Assembly (NCBI RefSeq): GCF_020217025.1
Contig: NZ_JAIWOF010000169.1
Span: forward strand, 1-10,000
DNA length: 10,000 bases
Direction: 5' to 3'
Source: Flavobacterium sp.
Lineage (GTDB): Bacteria; Bacteroidota; Bacteroidia; Flavobacteriales; Flavobacteriaceae
The notes under the pieces were generated by a model, which saw only the letters and a list, made by a program, of their open reading frames with translations, made no database searches and had not been told where the DNA came from. The translations under genes and the position numbers were made by a program. This document shows, piece after piece, positions 3,094 to 9,939 of the stretch. The stretch's first letter is position 1, and every line of letters begins with the position of its first letter.

Positions 3094-3597
3094 ATGAAAA
3101 ATTTAATACTTATTAGACATTCAAAGTCGAGTTGGGATGCACCAGTTCAAGATATTGACAGATCTATTTCCCAAAGAGGTGTTCGTGATGCCCATTTAAT
3201 AGCTTCAAAAACTCCTCAAATTTTGCCTTCATCTTATATTGTTTGGAGCAGTAAAGCAAAACGAACGCAAGAAACAGCATTCATTTTTTCTCAATACCTT
3301 TCTATTCCGCTTGAAACTATCCATTTTTCAGACGATTTATACACGTTTGATTCTAAAAAGTTGGAAAAAAGTATAAAAAAATGTGAAAATTCATATGATA
3401 GTTTAATTCTTTTTGGACATAATGAAGCTATTACAAAATTTGTTAATAAATTTGGAGACCTTTATATAGATAATGTCCCAACATCTGGTGTTGTTGCTTT
3501 GCAATTTGATACGGATGATTGGAATACGATTTCAAAAGGACAAACTAAAGCAACATTATTTCCAAGCCAGTTTAAAAATGAACAATCCCACAAATAA
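3094..3597 (+). CDS. sixA: SixA-type histidine phosphatase, first gene of the polyphosphate operon
   Basis: This 167-residue cytoplasmic protein belongs to the histidine phosphatase (phosphoglycerate mutase-like) superfamily. The N-terminal catalytic motif LIRHSKSSWD contains the phosphorylated H9 and R8, with Ser where many relatives have Gly or Ala. SSKAKRTQETA (52-62) carries the second phosphate-binding Arg (R57), and LFGHNEA (106-112) carries the second catalytic His (H109). This motif set and length fit the SixA group, described as phosphohistidine phosphatases acting on phosphorelay or PTS proteins. The real substrate here is not evident from sequence. The gene overlaps ppk1 by 20 nt and precedes ppx, so it is probably co-expressed with polyphosphate metabolism. 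The start codon is the first ATG and directly precedes the catalytic strand, so little else is possible. Confidence 0.88.
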   Translation: MKNLILIRHSKSSWDAPVQDIDRSISQRGVRDAHLIASKTPQILPSSYIVWSSKAKRTQETAFIFSQYLSIPLETIHFSDDLYTFDSKKLEKSIKKCENSYDSLILFGHNEAITKFVNKFGDLYIDNVPTSGVVALQFDTDDWNTISKGQTKATLFPSQFKNEQSHK

Positions 3598-5662
3598 TTA
3601 TATAGATAGAGAAAAAAGTTGGTTAACATTTAATGCAAGAGTGCTTCAAGAAGCCAATGATGAAAATGTACCTTTATTAGATCGATTTCGTTTCCTTGGG
3701 ATTTTCTCGAATAACTTAGATGAGTTTTTTAGAGTTCGTTACGCAGCCATTCGTCGAATGAGTCTTGAAACTACTGAAACCGAAAAAATTCTTGGAGTTC
3801 CCGCTGAACAATTACTTAAAGAAATTACCGATATTGTTATCGAACAACAATCGGAAAGTTTACGAATTTTAAGCGAAATCGAAAAAAAACTCGAAAATGA
3901 GAACATCTATATTATTAACGAAAAACAAGTTAATACAGAACAAGAAGTTTTTATTCACGATTATTTCATCCAAAAAGTTAGTCCAGCAGTTGTAACGATT
4001 ATGTTAAACGATTTAGAAGAATTTCCTCTTTTAAAAGATACTTCTGGATATTTAGCGATTAAATTAGTTATGAAATCAGAATCTCAAAACGAAGAGATTA
4101 AATATGCGGTGATCGAAATTCCAAATACAATAAACCGATTTGTTGTTCTTCCTTCAAATTCTGATAAACAGTATATCATTCTTCTTGATGATGTTATACG
4201 TCTTAACTTAAATAGTATTTTTAATATTTTTGATTACAAGACGATTTCAGCCCACATGATTAAAATTACTCGCGACGCTCAGTTGGAATTTGATAGTGAT
4301 TTGAGTAAAAGTTTAATGGAAAAGATTTCCAATTCCGTTAAAGAAAGAAGAGTAGGTGAGCCGGTTCGTTTTGTTTATGATCAAGCTATCGGTAAAGATA
4401 CTTTGGAGTTTTTCCTTAAAGGAATGAATATTCTAAGTTCTGATAGTATTATTCCGGGTGGAAGATATCACAATCGTAGAGATTACATGAACTTCCCAAA
4501 TTTAGGAAGATACGATTTATTATATAGAGAAAACTTACCATTACCCGTTCCAGGATTATCACTAGAAGGAAGTATTTTAGAGCGAATCAAAAAGAAAGAT
4601 TATTTGCTTTATGCACCCTATCAATCTTTTTCTTATATCATAAAATTTTTGCGTGAAGCGGCTTTAGATCCAAAAGTAGCTTCTATTAAAATTACATTGT
4701 ATCGTTTGGCTAAGAATTCACAAATTGTGAGTTCATTAATTAACGCTGCAAAAAACGGAAAAAAAGTAACGGTTCAAATCGAATTGCAAGCGCGTTTTGA
4801 TGAAGAAAGTAATATTTCCTATTCCGAACAAATGCAAACCGAAGGAATTGAATTAATTTTTGGAGTGAAAGGTTTAAAAGTTCACAGTAAAATTTGTGTT
4901 ATTGAACGAATTGAGGAAGGAAGAGTAAAACGCTATGGATTTATTTCGACCGGAAATTTCAATGAAAATTCTGCAAAAGTTTATACCGATGTGACTTTAT
5001 TTACAAGCAATGTTGAAATTCTTAAAGACGCTGCTAAGATTTTTGATTTCTTCGATGTGAATTATCGCGTACATCGTTACAAACATTTAATTGTTTCGCC
5101 ACATTATACCAGAAGTCGTTTTAATAAACTAATTGATAGAGAAATTTTAAATGCGCTTTCAGGAAAAGAAGCCTATATTAAATTGAAAATGAACAGTATA
5201 TCCGATTTTAAAATGACGGATAAATTGTATGAAGCAAGTCAAGCCGGAGTAAAAATTCAATTGATAATTAGAGGAATTTGTTGTTTGATTCCTGGAGTTA
5301 AAGGTTTAAGCGAAAATATTGAAGCCATCAGTATTGTAGATAATTATTTAGAACATTCCCGAATTTATATTTTTGGAAATGAAGGGGATTCTGAAGTTTT
5401 TATTTCATCGGCGGATTTTATGACTCGTAATTTGGATGCAAGGGTAGAAGTAACCTGTCCTATTTATGATCCTGAAATTAAAAAAGAACTAATTGAAACT
5501 TTTGAAATAGGTTGGAAAGCTAACGTAAAAGCTCGTATTCATTCGGCAGATTTATTAAATCGTTACAGAAAACGTGGTGATGAAAAACCATTTAGAGCCC
5601 AACAAGAAATGTACAATTATTACCAAAACAAATTAGATGTGATTGCCGAGAACGTGCAATAA
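3578..5662 (+). CDS. ppk1: Polyphosphate kinase (PPK1)
   Basis: PPK1 reversibly transfers the ATP gamma-phosphate onto growing polyphosphate chains. The protein is 694 residues, the usual PPK1 size, and begins with the family opening (N)YIDREKSWLTFNARVLQEA. LDRFRFLGIFSNNLDEFFRVR follows in the N-terminal domain. The two phospholipase-D-like catalytic domains are in the second half. H436 in GLKVHSK aligns with the autophosphorylated H435 of E. coli, and H593 in YLEHSRIYIF aligns with E. coli H592. The position matching E. coli H454 is Phe (F455 in RYGFISTGNFNE). The motifs ISTGNFNE, RGICCLIPG and FISSADFMTRNLD are all intact. An in-frame ATG at 3473 would add 35 residues unlike the family and overlap sixA by 125 nt, so 3578 is chosen, leaving a 20 nt overlap. 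No Shine-Dalgarno is seen, as is normal in Bacteroidota. Confidence 0.96.
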   Translation: MNNPTNNYIDREKSWLTFNARVLQEANDENVPLLDRFRFLGIFSNNLDEFFRVRYAAIRRMSLETTETEKILGVPAEQLLKEITDIVIEQQSESLRILSEIEKKLENENIYIINEKQVNTEQEVFIHDYFIQKVSPAVVTIMLNDLEEFPLLKDTSGYLAIKLVMKSESQNEEIKYAVIEIPNTINRFVVLPSNSDKQYIILLDDVIRLNLNSIFNIFDYKTISAHMIKITRDAQLEFDSDLSKSLMEKISNSVKERRVGEPVRFVYDQAIGKDTLEFFLKGMNILSSDSIIPGGRYHNRRDYMNFPNLGRYDLLYRENLPLPVPGLSLEGSILERIKKKDYLLYAPYQSFSYIIKFLREAALDPKVASIKITLYRLAKNSQIVSSLINAAKNGKKVTVQIELQARFDEESNISYSEQMQTEGIELIFGVKGLKVHSKICVIERIEEGRVKRYGFISTGNFNENSAKVYTDVTLFTSNVEILKDAAKIFDFFDVNYRVHRYKHLIVSPHYTRSRFNKLIDREILNALSGKEAYIKLKMNSISDFKMTDKLYEASQAGVKIQLIIRGICCLIPGVKGLSENIEAISIVDNYLEHSRIYIFGNEGDSEVFISSADFMTRNLDARVEVTCPIYDPEIKKELIETFEIGWKANVKARIHSADLLNRYRKRGDEKPFRAQQEMYNYYQNKLDVIAENVQ

Positions 5663-5670
5663 AAATATAG

Positions 5671-6561
5671 ATGATTACAATAAAAAAATATGCAGCTATT
5701 GATATCGGTTCCAATGCCATGAGGTTATTGGTAACCAATATTGTAGAGCAAGAAGGCTGCGCACCACAATTCAATAAGAGTTCCTTAGTACGAGTTCCTA
5801 TTCGTTTAGGACAAGACGCTTTTACCGTAGGCGAAATTACCGAGGAAAATATCGAAAGGATGATTGACGCCATGAAAGCTTTCAAATTATTAATGAAAGT
5901 ACATAAGGTAGAAAAATATCAAGCCTGCGCTACTTCAGCTATGCGCGAAGCTTATAATGGTAAAGAAGTAGTCGAAATCATCAAAAAGAAAGCCGATATA
6001 AAAATTGATATCATCGATGGTAAAAAAGAAGCCGCCATTATTGCGGCATCCGATTTAAAACAATTCATTAGTACTGATAAAGCTTATTTATATGTGGATG
6101 TTGGTGGTGGAAGCACCGAATTTTCTTTGTTCTACGAAGGAAAAATCATCGCATCTAAATCGTTCAAAAACGGAACCGTTCGCTTGTTAAATAACATGGT
6201 AAACGAAGTAGTTTGGCAAGAAATTGAAAAATGGATTAAAACCAATACCGAACCTTTTGAAGATATCACCTTAATTGGTTCTGGAGGAAATATTAATAAA
6301 TTATTCAAATTATCTGAAAAACAACAAGACAAACCGCTTTCGTATGTCTATGTAAGTTCACAATATCAAAAATTGAACAGCATGACCTACGAACAAAGAA
6401 TCGCTGAAATAGGTTTAAATCCAGATCGCGCCGATGTAATTATTCCAGCTACAAGAATCTATCTTAACGCTATGAAATGGAGTGGTGCCCGACATATTTA
6501 TGTACCAAAAATTGGATTATCCGATGGTATCGTGAAAGCGATGTATTATGGAAAGATATAA
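5671..6561 (+). CDS. ppx: Ppx/GppA-family phosphatase, probable exopolyphosphatase (single-module short form)
   Basis: This 296-residue protein of the ASKHA (actin/hexokinase-like) fold is predicted to release terminal phosphate from polyphosphate, or to act on pppGpp. Visible motifs are phosphate-1 AAIDIGSNAMRLL (8-20), ATSAMREA (88-95), a Glu in DGKKEAAII (E120) at the expected catalytic position, phosphate-2 YVDVGGGSTEF (141-151) and the nucleotide-site-like LIGSGGNINK (201-210). NPDRADVIIPA (250-260) is the conserved late motif. It lacks the C-terminal HD-type and extra domains of the 500-residue E. coli Ppx and GppA, so it is the short form with only the two ASKHA subdomains. It starts 8 nt after ppk1 and clearly belongs to that operon, which favours the polyphosphate role over pppGpp, although sequence alone cannot separate the two. 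REP palindromes begin 6 nt after its stop codon. Confidence 0.92.
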   Translation: MITIKKYAAIDIGSNAMRLLVTNIVEQEGCAPQFNKSSLVRVPIRLGQDAFTVGEITEENIERMIDAMKAFKLLMKVHKVEKYQACATSAMREAYNGKEVVEIIKKKADIKIDIIDGKKEAAIIAASDLKQFISTDKAYLYVDVGGGSTEFSLFYEGKIIASKSFKNGTVRLLNNMVNEVVWQEIEKWIKTNTEPFEDITLIGSGGNINKLFKLSEKQQDKPLSYVYVSSQYQKLNSMTYEQRIAEIGLNPDRADVIIPATRIYLNAMKWSGARHIYVPKIGLSDGIVKAMYYGKI

Positions 6562-6667: not shown

Positions 6668-6694
6668 ATCCCGTAGGGATGGTATAGCGGTAAT
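6668..6694 (+). repeat. REP-like palindrome copy 3, overlapping the transposase start codon
   Basis: ATCCC-GTA-GGGAT (6668-6680) forms a five-pair hairpin. The tail GGTATAGCGGTAAT is more diverged than those of copies 1 and 2 but keeps GGTA. The final bases of the unit are the first bases of the transposase ATG at 6693, so the hairpin lies about 12 nt upstream of that start, where a structure or a bound protein could affect translation. Confidence 0.75.
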
Positions 6695-7154
6695 GGCAAA
6701 CACATATACACAAATTCACATCCAATTTGTTTTTGCGGTAAAATATCGAAACGGATTAATTCATTCGTCATTCAAAGAGGAATTGTACCAATATATTTCA
6801 GGAATAATTAAGGCCAATAATCATAAATTATTAGCGATTAATGGAATGTCAGACCACATTCATATTTTAATCGGAATGCGTCCAACACAATCCATTTCTG
6901 AATTAATGCAAATCATTAAAGCCAATTCCTCCAAATGGATTAACGAGAAAAAGTTTTTAAATGTAAAATTTGAGTGGCAAGAAGGTTACGGAGCATTTTC
7001 GTATTCCAAATCCCATGTTCAAAATGTAATTAAGTACATTCAGAATCAAGAAGAACGTCATAAAACGAAATCATTTCAAGAGGAATATTTAGAATTTTTA
7101 GAAGCTTTTGAAGTGGAGTATGATGAACGTTACATTTTTAAAGAGCCTATTTAA
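6693..7154 (+). CDS. REP-associated tyrosine transposase (RAYT; IS200/Y1 transposase family)
   Basis: This 153-residue HUH-superfamily single-strand DNA nuclease has the complete Y1 transposase fold. It opens with YTQIHIQFVFAVKYRN, has the metal-binding HUH motif at 54-58 (DHIHI, H55 and H57), and has the likely catalytic Tyr at Y115 in VIKYIQNQEER. The WQEGYGAFSYSKS segment (95-107) is typical of this clade. Length is normal (about 150), with no frameshift and no missing catalytic residue, so it may be active. No tnpB gene or guide-RNA-like element is nearby. The flanking palindromes are the expected DNA targets of such enzymes, which cut next to hairpins and, in enterobacteria, are thought to spread REP/REPIN sequences. 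NCBI-style annotation would probably read IS200/IS605 family transposase. The start at 6693 is the first ATG and lies at the end of palindrome copy 3. Confidence 0.93.
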   Translation: MANTYTQIHIQFVFAVKYRNGLIHSSFKEELYQYISGIIKANNHKLLAINGMSDHIHILIGMRPTQSISELMQIIKANSSKWINEKKFLNVKFEWQEGYGAFSYSKSHVQNVIKYIQNQEERHKTKSFQEEYLEFLEAFEVEYDERYIFKEPI

Positions 7155-7278: not shown

Positions 7279-8175
7279 ATGAAGAAAATTGAAATACCAA
7301 AATTCCATGAAACATTTAATCCAATTTTACAGATATTGAGTAATGGAGAGATGATTCATACTAGAGAATTACAAGATTTGGTTATTAAGAAATATTATTC
7401 TGATTTACCTGAAGAAATGCTTAATGAGAAAACAAAATCAGGTGAAGTATTGATCAATAATAGAATTGCGTGGGGAAAATCATATCTAAAAAAAGGTGGA
7501 TATATTTTTTATCCAGAACGAGGACATGTTAAAATTACAGAGAAAGGTTTAAGTCAAAAGTCTAGTTTAACATTAAAAGATGTTGAACAAGGAACAAATA
7601 TGCTTGATTTTTATACCGAAGAAAATTTAAAGTTAAATAAATCTAAAACAGATATAAAAGTTATTGATAATGCATCTCCACAAGATTTAATTGATGAAGG
7701 TTTTTCAAAAATTGAAACAGAGGTAAAAAATGATTTATTAGATAAACTAAAAGTTATCAATCCATATTATTTTGAAAAAGTAATTCTTATTTTATTGAAG
7801 AAAATGGGTTATGGAGATTTTATAGAAACTTCTAAATCTTCAGATGGAGGAATTGATGGAATTATTAATGAAGACAAATTAGGTTTAGACAAAATTTATA
7901 TTCAGGCTAAAAGATTCAATGAGAATAAGGTAAGAGAAAAAGATATCAGAAATTTTATTGGAGCTATGAGTGGTGATACAAATAAAGGTGTTTTTGTAAC
8001 TACCTCATTATTTGATAAAGGTGCTGTTGAAAAAGCCAAAAATGCTCATCACAAAATAATTCTAATAGATGGAATTAAATTGGTTGATTTAATGCATGAG
8101 TTTAATGTTGGTGTTCAGACTAAATCTGTTTATGAAGTCAAGCAATTAGATGAAGATTTCTTTGAAGAACAATAA
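7279..8175 (+). CDS. mrr: Mrr-family restriction endonuclease (type IV)
   Basis: This 298-residue protein has two parts. An N-terminal winged-helix module (about 1-95) of the Mrr_N type shows ILSNGEMIHTRELQDLVI, a segment RIAWGKSYLKKGGYI and KITEKG. The C-terminal PD-(D/E)xK nuclease domain (about 155-275) shows NPYYFEKVILILLKKMGYGD, the catalytic D193 in SSDGGIDG, and Q209/K211 in IYIQAKRF, followed by IRNFIGAMSGDTNKGVFVTT. A charged linker joins them. Mrr enzymes cut DNA carrying foreign methylation and so defend against phage and plasmids. All nuclease residues are present. The gene is visibly more AT-rich than dnaX and ppk1, and sits beside a RAYT cluster, which suggests horizontal arrival. 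It has no partner methylase here, as expected for type IV. Its stop is one base from the convergent dnaX stop. No clear promoter is seen in 7222-7278. Confidence 0.9.
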   Translation: MKKIEIPKFHETFNPILQILSNGEMIHTRELQDLVIKKYYSDLPEEMLNEKTKSGEVLINNRIAWGKSYLKKGGYIFYPERGHVKITEKGLSQKSSLTLKDVEQGTNMLDFYTEENLKLNKSKTDIKVIDNASPQDLIDEGFSKIETEVKNDLLDKLKVINPYYFEKVILILLKKMGYGDFIETSKSSDGGIDGIINEDKLGLDKIYIQAKRFNENKVREKDIRNFIGAMSGDTNKGVFVTTSLFDKGAVEKAKNAHHKIILIDGIKLVDLMHEFNVGVQTKSVYEVKQLDEDFFEEQ

Positions 8176-8176
8176 T

Positions 8177-8872
8177 TTAAACATCCAAATCAAACGTCTT
8201 TCTCAACAAATCTAAAGCTGGATTAATTTGTTTTAAACGTTCAAATTTTTCTTGTGGAGTAAATGCGTATTTGTTTTCGGTAGTTTCATTTACTACAACT
8301 TCAATGGTAATATCGTGGTTGTGTAATTTTCCTCTTAAATAACCCATTAATTCATGGCAACCCGATAAAAATTCCTCTTTCGTACTTTGATTTGGAAGTT
8401 CTAAAGTAATGGTGGTTCCGTTTAACGTTGGATCGTTCATTTGCATGTAAGTTGCTAACAAACGCTTTCCGCTATCGGTCATTTTTTGAGCAAATTTATT
8501 CCACTGCAACAACATATCGGTTTCGTTAAACGTTTCTGAAGGTAATTCCTCTCTGTGTTTTTGAAAGGTTTGTTGTTGGGCTTCTAACTCTTTTTTCGCT
8601 TTAATACTTGCTAATGAAAGTGCCGAAACTTTAGTTCCTGTCGGATTTAAATTGGTTAAAACGGGTTTCGGAATTTCAGGAACTATTGGAGCAACTACTT
8701 CATTTTGAACTTGAGGAATTTCAGCAACTATTGGTTCGTTTATAACTGTTTCAGATACTATAACAGGTTTTGTTTCCTCAGTTGAAACCTGAGTTTTAAC
8801 CGTTGGAACTTCAGTAATAGAGTAGGAGTTGTTCTTGTAATGAGTAGCCGGAATGATAAATTTAGCTACTTT
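8177..8872 (-). CDS. dnaX: DnaX tau-specific C-terminal part, encoded in the -1 frame relative to the N-terminal part
   Basis: Reading on from the A10 run in the -1 frame gives VAKFIIPATHYKNN, a Val/Pro/Glu-rich linker of about 60 residues, a helical stretch (SALSLASIKAKKELEAQQQ), then a conserved block LLQWNKFAQKM to LDLLRKTFDLDV. This is the C-terminal end expected for flavobacterial DnaX tau, the part that links the clamp loader to polymerase and helicase. The frame is open from 8884, since an in-frame TGA lies at 8887-8885, and holds no ATG until 8515. The first 118 codons can therefore only be read by shifting from the upstream gene. Shifted product: 587 residues in total (357 plus 230). 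The 112-codon piece starting at 8515 should not be taken as an independent gene. The stop codon is one base from the mrr stop. Confidence 0.85.
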   Translation of the reverse strand, partial: KVAKFIIPATHYKNNSYSITEVPTVKTQVSTEETKPVIVSETVINEPIVAEIPQVQNEVVAPIVPEIPKPVLTNLNPTGTKVSALSLASIKAKKELEAQQQTFQKHREELPSETFNETDMLLQWNKFAQKMTDSGKRLLATYMQMNDPTLNGTTITLELPNQSTKEEFLSGCHELMGYLRGKLHNHDITIEVVVNETTENKYAFTPQEKFERLKQINPALDLLRKTFDLDV

Positions 8873-8880
8873 TTTTTTTC
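8866..8880 (-). other. dnaX slippery run (A10) with immediate zero-frame stop: frameshift or slippage site
   Basis: On the minus strand the zero frame reads GAA AAA AAA AAG TAG. It contains the heptamer A AAA AAG in the same phase as the E. coli dnaX frameshift site. The zero-frame stop directly follows the run, and the -1 frame stop lies just before it, so the two frames overlap for only about 19 nt around the run. A six-pair stem (AGTAGC 8870-8865 with GCTACT 8848-8843) starts at the run itself, with none of the spacing usual for a ribosomal stimulator. Transcriptional slippage or a homopolymer count error fits at least as well as a ribosomal shift. Confidence 0.7.
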
Positions 8881-9939
8881 TCCATCAAAAGTGATAGAGG
8901 CTAATTGCATCAAACAAAGCTCGACTAAAAGGCGTTGATTTTGACTGACTTTATATTTCAAATCACATTCATTAGCTAACTCAATTCCTTTTAATAAGAA
9001 ATCGTGCATTACTTTGTGTGATTGCGCTGCATATAAACTTTGTGCATGTTCCCCAGCTTCCAATAAAGGTAAAGTAGCCGGATTTTTACACACTAATAAA
9101 TCTCTAAAATGCGAAGCCAAACCTGCAATAAAATGATGTCCATCAAAACCTTTTGCTAAAATATCATTGTAAGCTAAAAGTAAATCCGGAATTTTATTTT
9201 CTAAAATTAAATCGGTGATTTTGATGTAATATTCAAAATCTAATACGTTTAAATTTTCAGTAACCGCTTGTCTAGTAAGGTTTTTTCCACAATAAGATAC
9301 TACTCGGTCAAAAATAGACAAAGCATCACGCATAGCACCATCTGCTTTTTGAGCAATGATGTGAAGAGCGTCGTCTTCAAAGGTAATTCCTTGTTCTTTA
9401 GCAATTTCAGCTAAGTGTTCTTTTGCATCTTTAACCGTAATTCTCTTAAAATCAAAAATTTGACAACGCGATAAAATCGTTGGAATAATTTTATGTTTTT
9501 CAGTAGTTGCTAAAATGAAAATAGCATGCTTAGGTGGTTCTTCTAATGTTTTTAGGAAAGCATTAAAAGCAGCTTGCGAAAGCATGTGCACCTCGTCAAT
9601 GATATATACTTTGTATTTTCCAGTTTGTGGAGGTATTCTAACTTGATCGATAATACTTCTAATATCATCAACACCATTATTAGAAGCCGCATCTAATTCA
9701 AAAACGTTAAAAGAGAAATCCTCATACGGATCATCATACCCTTCTTGATTGATTTTTCGAGCTAGAATTCGTGCACAAGTTGTTTTTCCTACACCACGTG
9801 GTCCAGTAAATAATAAGGCTTGTGCCAAGTGATTCGTTTCAATAGCATTCAACAAAGTATTGGTAATAGCTTGTTGCCCCACAACATCTTTAAATGTTTG
9901 CGGACGATACTTACGAGCCGATACGATAAATTGTTCCAT
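8866..9939 (-). CDS. dnaX: DNA polymerase III subunit gamma/tau, zero-frame product (gamma-like, clamp-loader core)
   Basis: This is the 357-residue ATPase subunit of the clamp loader. It shows Walker A GPRGVGKTT (46-54), Walker B VYIIDEVHML (111-120), sensor-1 FILATTEKHK (141-150) and the SRC motif LSRCQIF (157-162). MRDALSIFDRV marks domain II, and the collar domain III ends at about 350. The frame stops right after GEKKK at the A10 run, so the product has domains I-III and no tau tail, close to the content of E. coli gamma. The four-Cys zinc module normally found after Walker A is absent: the stretch 62-80 (KINQEGYDDPYEDFSFNVF) has no Cys. The upstream ATG at 9993 is rejected because it adds 18 unrelated residues and lies ahead of the predicted promoter. 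Full-length tau needs a -1 shift into the segment ending at 8177. Confidence 0.93.
   Translation of the reverse strand: MEQFIVSARKYRPQTFKDVVGQQAITNTLLNAIETNHLAQALLFTGPRGVGKTTCARILARKINQEGYDDPYEDFSFNVFELDAASNNGVDDIRSIIDQVRIPPQTGKYKVYIIDEVHMLSQAAFNAFLKTLEEPPKHAIFILATTEKHKIIPTILSRCQIFDFKRITVKDAKEHLAEIAKEQGITFEDDALHIIAQKADGAMRDALSIFDRVVSYCGKNLTRQAVTENLNVLDFEYYIKITDLILENKIPDLLLAYNDILAKGFDGHHFIAGLASHFRDLLVCKNPATLPLLEAGEHAQSLYAAQSHKVMHDFLLKGIELANECDLKYKVSQNQRLLVELCLMQLASITFDGEKKK

Follow-up and report, generated by a model that had tools for sequence, protein, structure and literature searches.

A conserved run of ten A's at the split in a flavobacterial dnaX gene as a candidate site of transcriptional slippage

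The dnaX gene in the window (the whole 10,000-nucleotide stretch of DNA that was analysed) is divided at a run of ten A's (A10), and very probably it is one gene that yields a short and a long protein by way of this run. The A10 run is quite probably a programmed transcriptional slippage site; we infer that slippage occurs at the run, that it occurs during transcription and that it balances the supply of tau and gamma. What lies beyond chance is the conservation of A10 at the exact junction in relatives of the window, together with the scarcity of A10 in the remainder of the genome.

The dnaX locus of the window

The source genome is a 2.5 Mb draft in 238 contigs that is 92.75% complete, and its nearest named relatives belong to Flavobacterium. 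The parts of the locus, in the order of the gene, are as follows.

8866..9939, minus strand: dnaX clamp-loader core in the zero frame, a gamma-like product of 357 aa plus stop, from the ORF list
8880..8883, minus strand: GGAG, Shine-Dalgarno-like, directly upstream of the run and 4 nt before the heptamer; it is also part of Gly-Glu codons and its role is doubtful
8870..8879, minus strand: the A10 run, a putative slippage run kept in relatives (T10 on the plus strand)
8866..8868, minus strand: zero-frame stop TAG, read from the sequence, which ends gamma
8862..8864, minus strand: TAA stop of the +1 (third) frame, read from the sequence, which with the TAG closes both non-tau frames at once
8177..8869, minus strand: C-terminal tail of tau, 230 residues in the -1 frame, with the stop at 8177-8179

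The core ORF begins with an ATG at 9939 on the minus strand and contains 357 codons up to the TAG. It has both the AAA+ clamp-loader core and the lid domain of DnaX, as Pfam matches to DNA_pol3_delta2 (4.4e-35) and DNAX_ATPase_lid (7.5e-14) and an NCBIfam match to dnaX_nterm (2.9e-115, above the model cut-off) demonstrate. The codons at the junction in the core frame are GAA AAA AAA AAG TAG, and the A_AAA_AAG heptamer is in phase within the run. On the tau side of the junction the lysines run into VAKFIIPATHYK. The tail is homologous to the tau-specific C-terminal part of full-length relatives and matches positions 404-613 of 614 in NF011531 (PRK14971, a Pol III gamma/tau model) at 2.6e-26; its score falls below the 685-bit whole-protein cut-off of that model, as expected for a part. 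A Pfam search of the tau tail gave no match. The first ATG, GTG or TTG used by the ORF caller in the tail frame is at 8515, which is 118 codons in. Differences between the tail in the window and those of seven close relatives lie mostly at third codon positions of the -1 frame, and the tail is under protein-coding constraint.

The initial annotation, which was made from this DNA alone, had described most of this arrangement correctly. Its identification of dnaX is borne out by the Pfam and NCBIfam matches on the core and by NF011531 on the tail. The zero-frame stop does lie directly after GAA AAA AAA AAG, at 8866-8868, with the tail in a -1 frame that is open to 8177, and the 118 codons without a start codon and the heptamer in the same phase as in E. 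coli are as it had stated. Its reversed order of products also stands, in that at the DNA level tau needs the shift and the zero frame encodes the gamma-like protein.

Downstream of dnaX and convergent with it is a gene for a Mrr-type restriction endonuclease with Mrr_N and Mrr_cat domains (7279-8175, plus strand), whose stop lies next to position 8177, where the tau tail ends. An IS200-like Y1 transposase is encoded at 6693-7154 on the plus strand. A histidine phosphatase-family gene, a polyphosphate kinase and a Ppx/GppA phosphatase follow one another at 3094-6561 on the same strand, the first two apparently overlapping. A large protein whose match to DUF11 is weak and falls under the Pfam cut-off is encoded at 3-2357 on the minus strand and extends past the edge of the window.

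Conservation of the run and changes in the frame of tau

A total of 210 dnaX loci were gathered, and removal of 7 duplicates left 203 unique loci. The sampling was not random: it included the best 80 named matches listed and 100 stretches picked by hand for family spread, and six sampled loci beyond the class were chosen for a short open frame. The loci are related by descent, and the counts given below are not counts of independent events. The order and class of the surveyed genomes were assigned by kinship codes. The genus-level groups differ by one locus between tests (107 versus 106), and a few of their records carry the titles of other genera.

The junction carries a run of at least nine A's in 199 of the 203 unique loci, the window counted, and the run is exactly ten in 175 of the 203. 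It is shorter than nine in the other four (L191, L165, L185 and L166). One of these, L191, comes from a reduced genome of 0.3 Mb in the same order (G051), and its dnaX has neither a long run nor a long tail frame in the stretch read; perhaps this organism makes gamma only. The junction sequence GGAGAAAAAAAAAAG recurs in most of the loci in which a simple motif located the junction. A dnaX match was found in 35 of 36 genomes of the same genus, and the remaining one (G030) gave weak matches only. The open frame among these 35 genomes is 361-401 codons long in 33, 609 codons long in G034 and a fragment in G003; in a second same-genus set it is 362-378 codons long in 18 of 18 rows, including the window.

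The occurrence of an A10 within the window is by itself not improbable, since the sequence is AT-rich and 2.11 matches are expected in shuffles. The whole 2.5 Mb genome has 26 overlapping A10 matches, which correspond to 18 distinct runs, and within about 1000 nt of the upstream core the longest A run is only 3-7 in 103 of 103 loci. Among the 18 runs, the sole other one with more than 100 codons open upstream on the A strand is L231 (G000:C166:6292-6301), with 149 codons open before it and 39 after it; it is a possible slippage site. The A-run system is not phylum-wide, because 7 of 14 further loci beyond the class, selected for a long open frame, are without a run of at least nine. Six of the seven that do have a run close both other frames within 9 codons.

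The position of the run relative to the codons is not what has been kept. In loci outside the genus the end of the run falls in each of the three codon phases (37, 31 and 25 of 93 loci), and the base that follows it is G, T or C in 47, 31 and 15 loci, respectively. The conserved thing is therefore neither a codon phase nor a heptamer. The frame of tau varies as well. Two of the 199 run-bearing loci (L153 and L189) are cut by contig ends so that the tau frame is unreadable, and the 197 readable loci divide into 144 with tau in -1, 49 with tau in zero and 4 with tau in +1. The initial annotation had proposed that dnaX of relatives be compared, and with tau in -1 in most loci and a long run in nearly all of them the relatives are not uniformly in frame. 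One clade within the genus (L013, L054 and L064) retains an intact A10 and encodes tau in the zero frame; the -1 frame there runs into a stop.

The minimum number of changes in frame order was counted on a tree of 114 core proteins, 111 of them with a state; it is a quick tree with long branches. The minimum is 19 changes with no branches collapsed, 11 when branches below 95 are collapsed and 7 when those below 99 are collapsed. At least 16 rows were flagged for long branches, and removal of 12 of them gave 13 changes, or 10 with branches below 95 collapsed. The cases with tau in +1 are few (4), and single-base differences in run length could be assembly errors. In one such case, L080 from Flavobacterium sp. 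YO12, the run is A9 with A10 in its sisters, which places tau in +1; this is either a real change or an assembly error.

We lean towards the view that, across much of the order and class to which the window belongs, neither product of dnaX is a fixed default. With a conserved A10 and slippage by RNA polymerase the downstream frame would become nearly irrelevant: insertions and deletions of one base around the run would repeatedly flip the product that appears to be encoded, while the run itself and the stops in both other frames would be maintained by selection.

Closure of the other frames

In 191 of 197 loci each of the two non-tau frames meets a stop no more than 9 codons past the run; of 3940 random control sites in these tails, 32% show the same. 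The other six loci (L012, L128, L151, L174, L179 and L203) are not promptly closed in both frames. When tau is in the -1 frame, the third frame stops within 9 codons in 99% of loci versus 64% of controls (n=144), and when tau is in the zero frame, the +1 frame does so in 92% versus 52% (n=50).

Codon choice at the start of the tail is of the same kind. The first isoleucine of an I-I-P motif in the tail, when encoded by ATA, gives rise to a TAA in another frame; ATA is used in 94 of 94 genus-level loci where that frame has not already stopped. In the same 94 loci the next isoleucine is encoded by ATT in 79, ATC in 10 and ATA in 5, and the background share of ATA among isoleucine codons of the tail is 284 of 1359. 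Where an earlier stop exists, the first isoleucine is ATA in 3 of 8 loci and ATC in 5 of 8; these eight are apparently the window and its seven nearest relatives, hence one lineage. In this lineage, the window included, the stop codon TAG comes straight after the run. Four of 106 genus loci without I-I-P (L040, L113, L114 and L115) were dropped from this test. Termination of the short product thus seems to have been kept by selection, a sign that gamma matters as well as tau.

Slippage, its alternatives and the known systems

It is proposed that RNA polymerase would gain or lose A's as it copies the run, giving dnaX mRNAs of several run lengths. Those with the tail in frame, for example with 11 A's, would give tau by normal translation, and unslipped mRNAs and those of other run lengths would run into a stop no more than a few codons on and yield gamma. 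Neither product would be the default, as a mixed pool of mRNAs would supply both. A9 runs are reported to slip efficiently in bacterial RNA polymerase and to make the tau and gamma of Thermus (PMC5009743, PMC1088944).

The alternative that merits most discussion is that ribosomes slip by -1 at A_AAA_AAG and continue into tau, as in E. coli dnaX with the products reversed. Several observations agree with it. Among the split arrangements tau in -1 predominates by a wide margin, 100 of 106 genus loci have the heptamer in phase, and a Shine-Dalgarno-like 4-mer lies upstream of the run in 101 of 107 genus-level loci (raw count). Among the 43 tRNA matches in the genome, which is 92.75% complete, tRNA-Lys is represented by two, both UUU; since only tRNA-Lys(UUU) was found, ribosomal slippage is possible, but the tRNA-Lys content does not separate the mechanisms. 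However, the heptamer is in phase in only 18 of 93 loci outside the genus, the other 75 having an A-only heptamer in phase, and the Shine-Dalgarno-like 4-mer is mostly not kept there (33 of 92, raw count). In the discussion of a research paper (PMC12421855, mBio 2025), F. johnsoniae is described as rarely using Shine-Dalgarno sequences in initiation and as having low-efficiency frameshifting at prfB. By absolute energy the 60 nt downstream of the run are weakly folded, at -1.4 kcal/mol in the window and a mean of -4.7 in 53 of the 106 genus loci at offset 2, versus -19.4 for E. coli. Mean fold z-scores in the 53 genus loci are near 0, but this proves nothing because the z-score test failed to flag the known stem-loop of E. 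coli, the positive control (0.28, -0.41 and -0.58 at offsets 2, 5 and 8). In loci outside the genus, folding of the RNA just past the run is slightly stronger than at control offsets, with a mean z of -0.38 to -0.59 (2-8 nt) versus -0.05 to -0.30 (60-300 nt) by the same test that missed the E. coli stem-loop. A -1 shift explains neither the closure of the third frame nor a run of at least nine. A kept run, with variable phase, next base and tau frame and with both other frames closed, fits polymerase slippage better than ribosomal -1 frameshifting, and the ribosomal reading is considered rather unlikely. The weight that the initial annotation had placed on the E. coli ribosomal heptamer is accordingly less supported, and its suggestion that gamma is made by default gives way to a comparative pattern that favours polymerase slippage with neither product as default.

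Three further explanations were considered and set aside. The length of the genomic run could switch between cells by replicative phase variation, as homopolymers do mutate via slippage and L080 has A9 among A10 sisters. This is very unlikely, given that the run is exactly A10 in 175 of the 203 unique loci and that phase variation would be unexpected at an essential replication gene. It is extremely unlikely that two proteins are made by reinitiation, or that the gene has decayed and yields gamma only. A zero-frame stop followed by an open frame would suit either case, but the tail is constrained as protein and has no start codon for 118 codons. In the 149 loci scored with tau out of frame, among them L189, which is cut by its contig end, the first ATG, GTG or TTG lies at a median of 69 codons past the run; 15 of the loci have one within 20 codons and 2 have one within 10. 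The run could also be a true A11 in a single frame that was misread or misassembled, as homopolymers in a draft genome of 238 contigs may be. This is almost certainly not so, as the identical split occurs at the identical place in assemblies of many named species and in single-contig genomes, and the codon pattern of the tail fits the -1 frame. An isolated mutation is ruled out by the run of at least nine in 199 of 203 unique loci. The initial annotation had offered a miscounted base as the plain alternative to an unusual recoding; the conserved split favours real recoding. This organisation of dnaX is not unprecedented, having been reported in 2013.

That report (Antonov et al. 2013, PMC3711429) describes 17 two-ORF dnaX genes, nine with A10, for which transcriptional realignment was inferred by its authors, and the reversed organisation was repeated in the dnaX part of a 2016 review (PMC5009743). 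As outlined there, the type has the core and tail in two ORFs, a -1 relation at the DNA level, a tau that needs recoding and a poly-A junction. All of these are found in the window, where the -1 tail follows a poly-A run that is conserved in relatives, and the window itself shows no difference from the type so outlined. Its dnaX is by its layout a new member of this published kind, and its genus may be among the nine A10 species of Antonov et al. The wider survey, the frame flips, the closure of both other frames and the selected stop-making codon are added here. A search of the open-access literature returned no survey of the dnaX A-run across the window's class, most subscription papers being outside its scope.

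In Thermus thermophilus, transcriptional slippage at an A9 run of dnaX has been measured, according to the dnaX accounts in PMC5009743 and PMC1088944. A run of 9-10 A's, nearby stops in both non-tau frames and tau and gamma products are common to both systems. However, the DNA of Thermus encodes tau in the zero frame and that of the window in -1 (tau is in zero in 49 of 197 loci), and slippage was measured in the former and is inferred in the latter. E. coli dnaX (L369) shares with the window an in-phase A_AAA_AAG and two products from one gene. Its run has six A's, in contrast to the A10 of the window, and its shifted product is gamma, whereas in the window the zero frame encodes the gamma-like protein. 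The E. coli site is stimulated by a Shine-Dalgarno sequence ahead of it and a stem-loop after it, as stated in the passages on dnaX in PMC3711429 and PMC5009743.

Although split dnaX genes of this kind can look broken or truncated in genomes, it is probable that they are intact and use recoding. The run stays constant while the frame flips repeatedly, and this offers a natural comparison for distinguishing slippage by RNA polymerase from frameshifting by the ribosome; run lengths in the mRNA would be a direct readout of how tau and gamma are supplied in a large bacterial group. If the view of dnaX favoured above is true, the apparent reading frame of an essential gene would be evolutionarily near-neutral.
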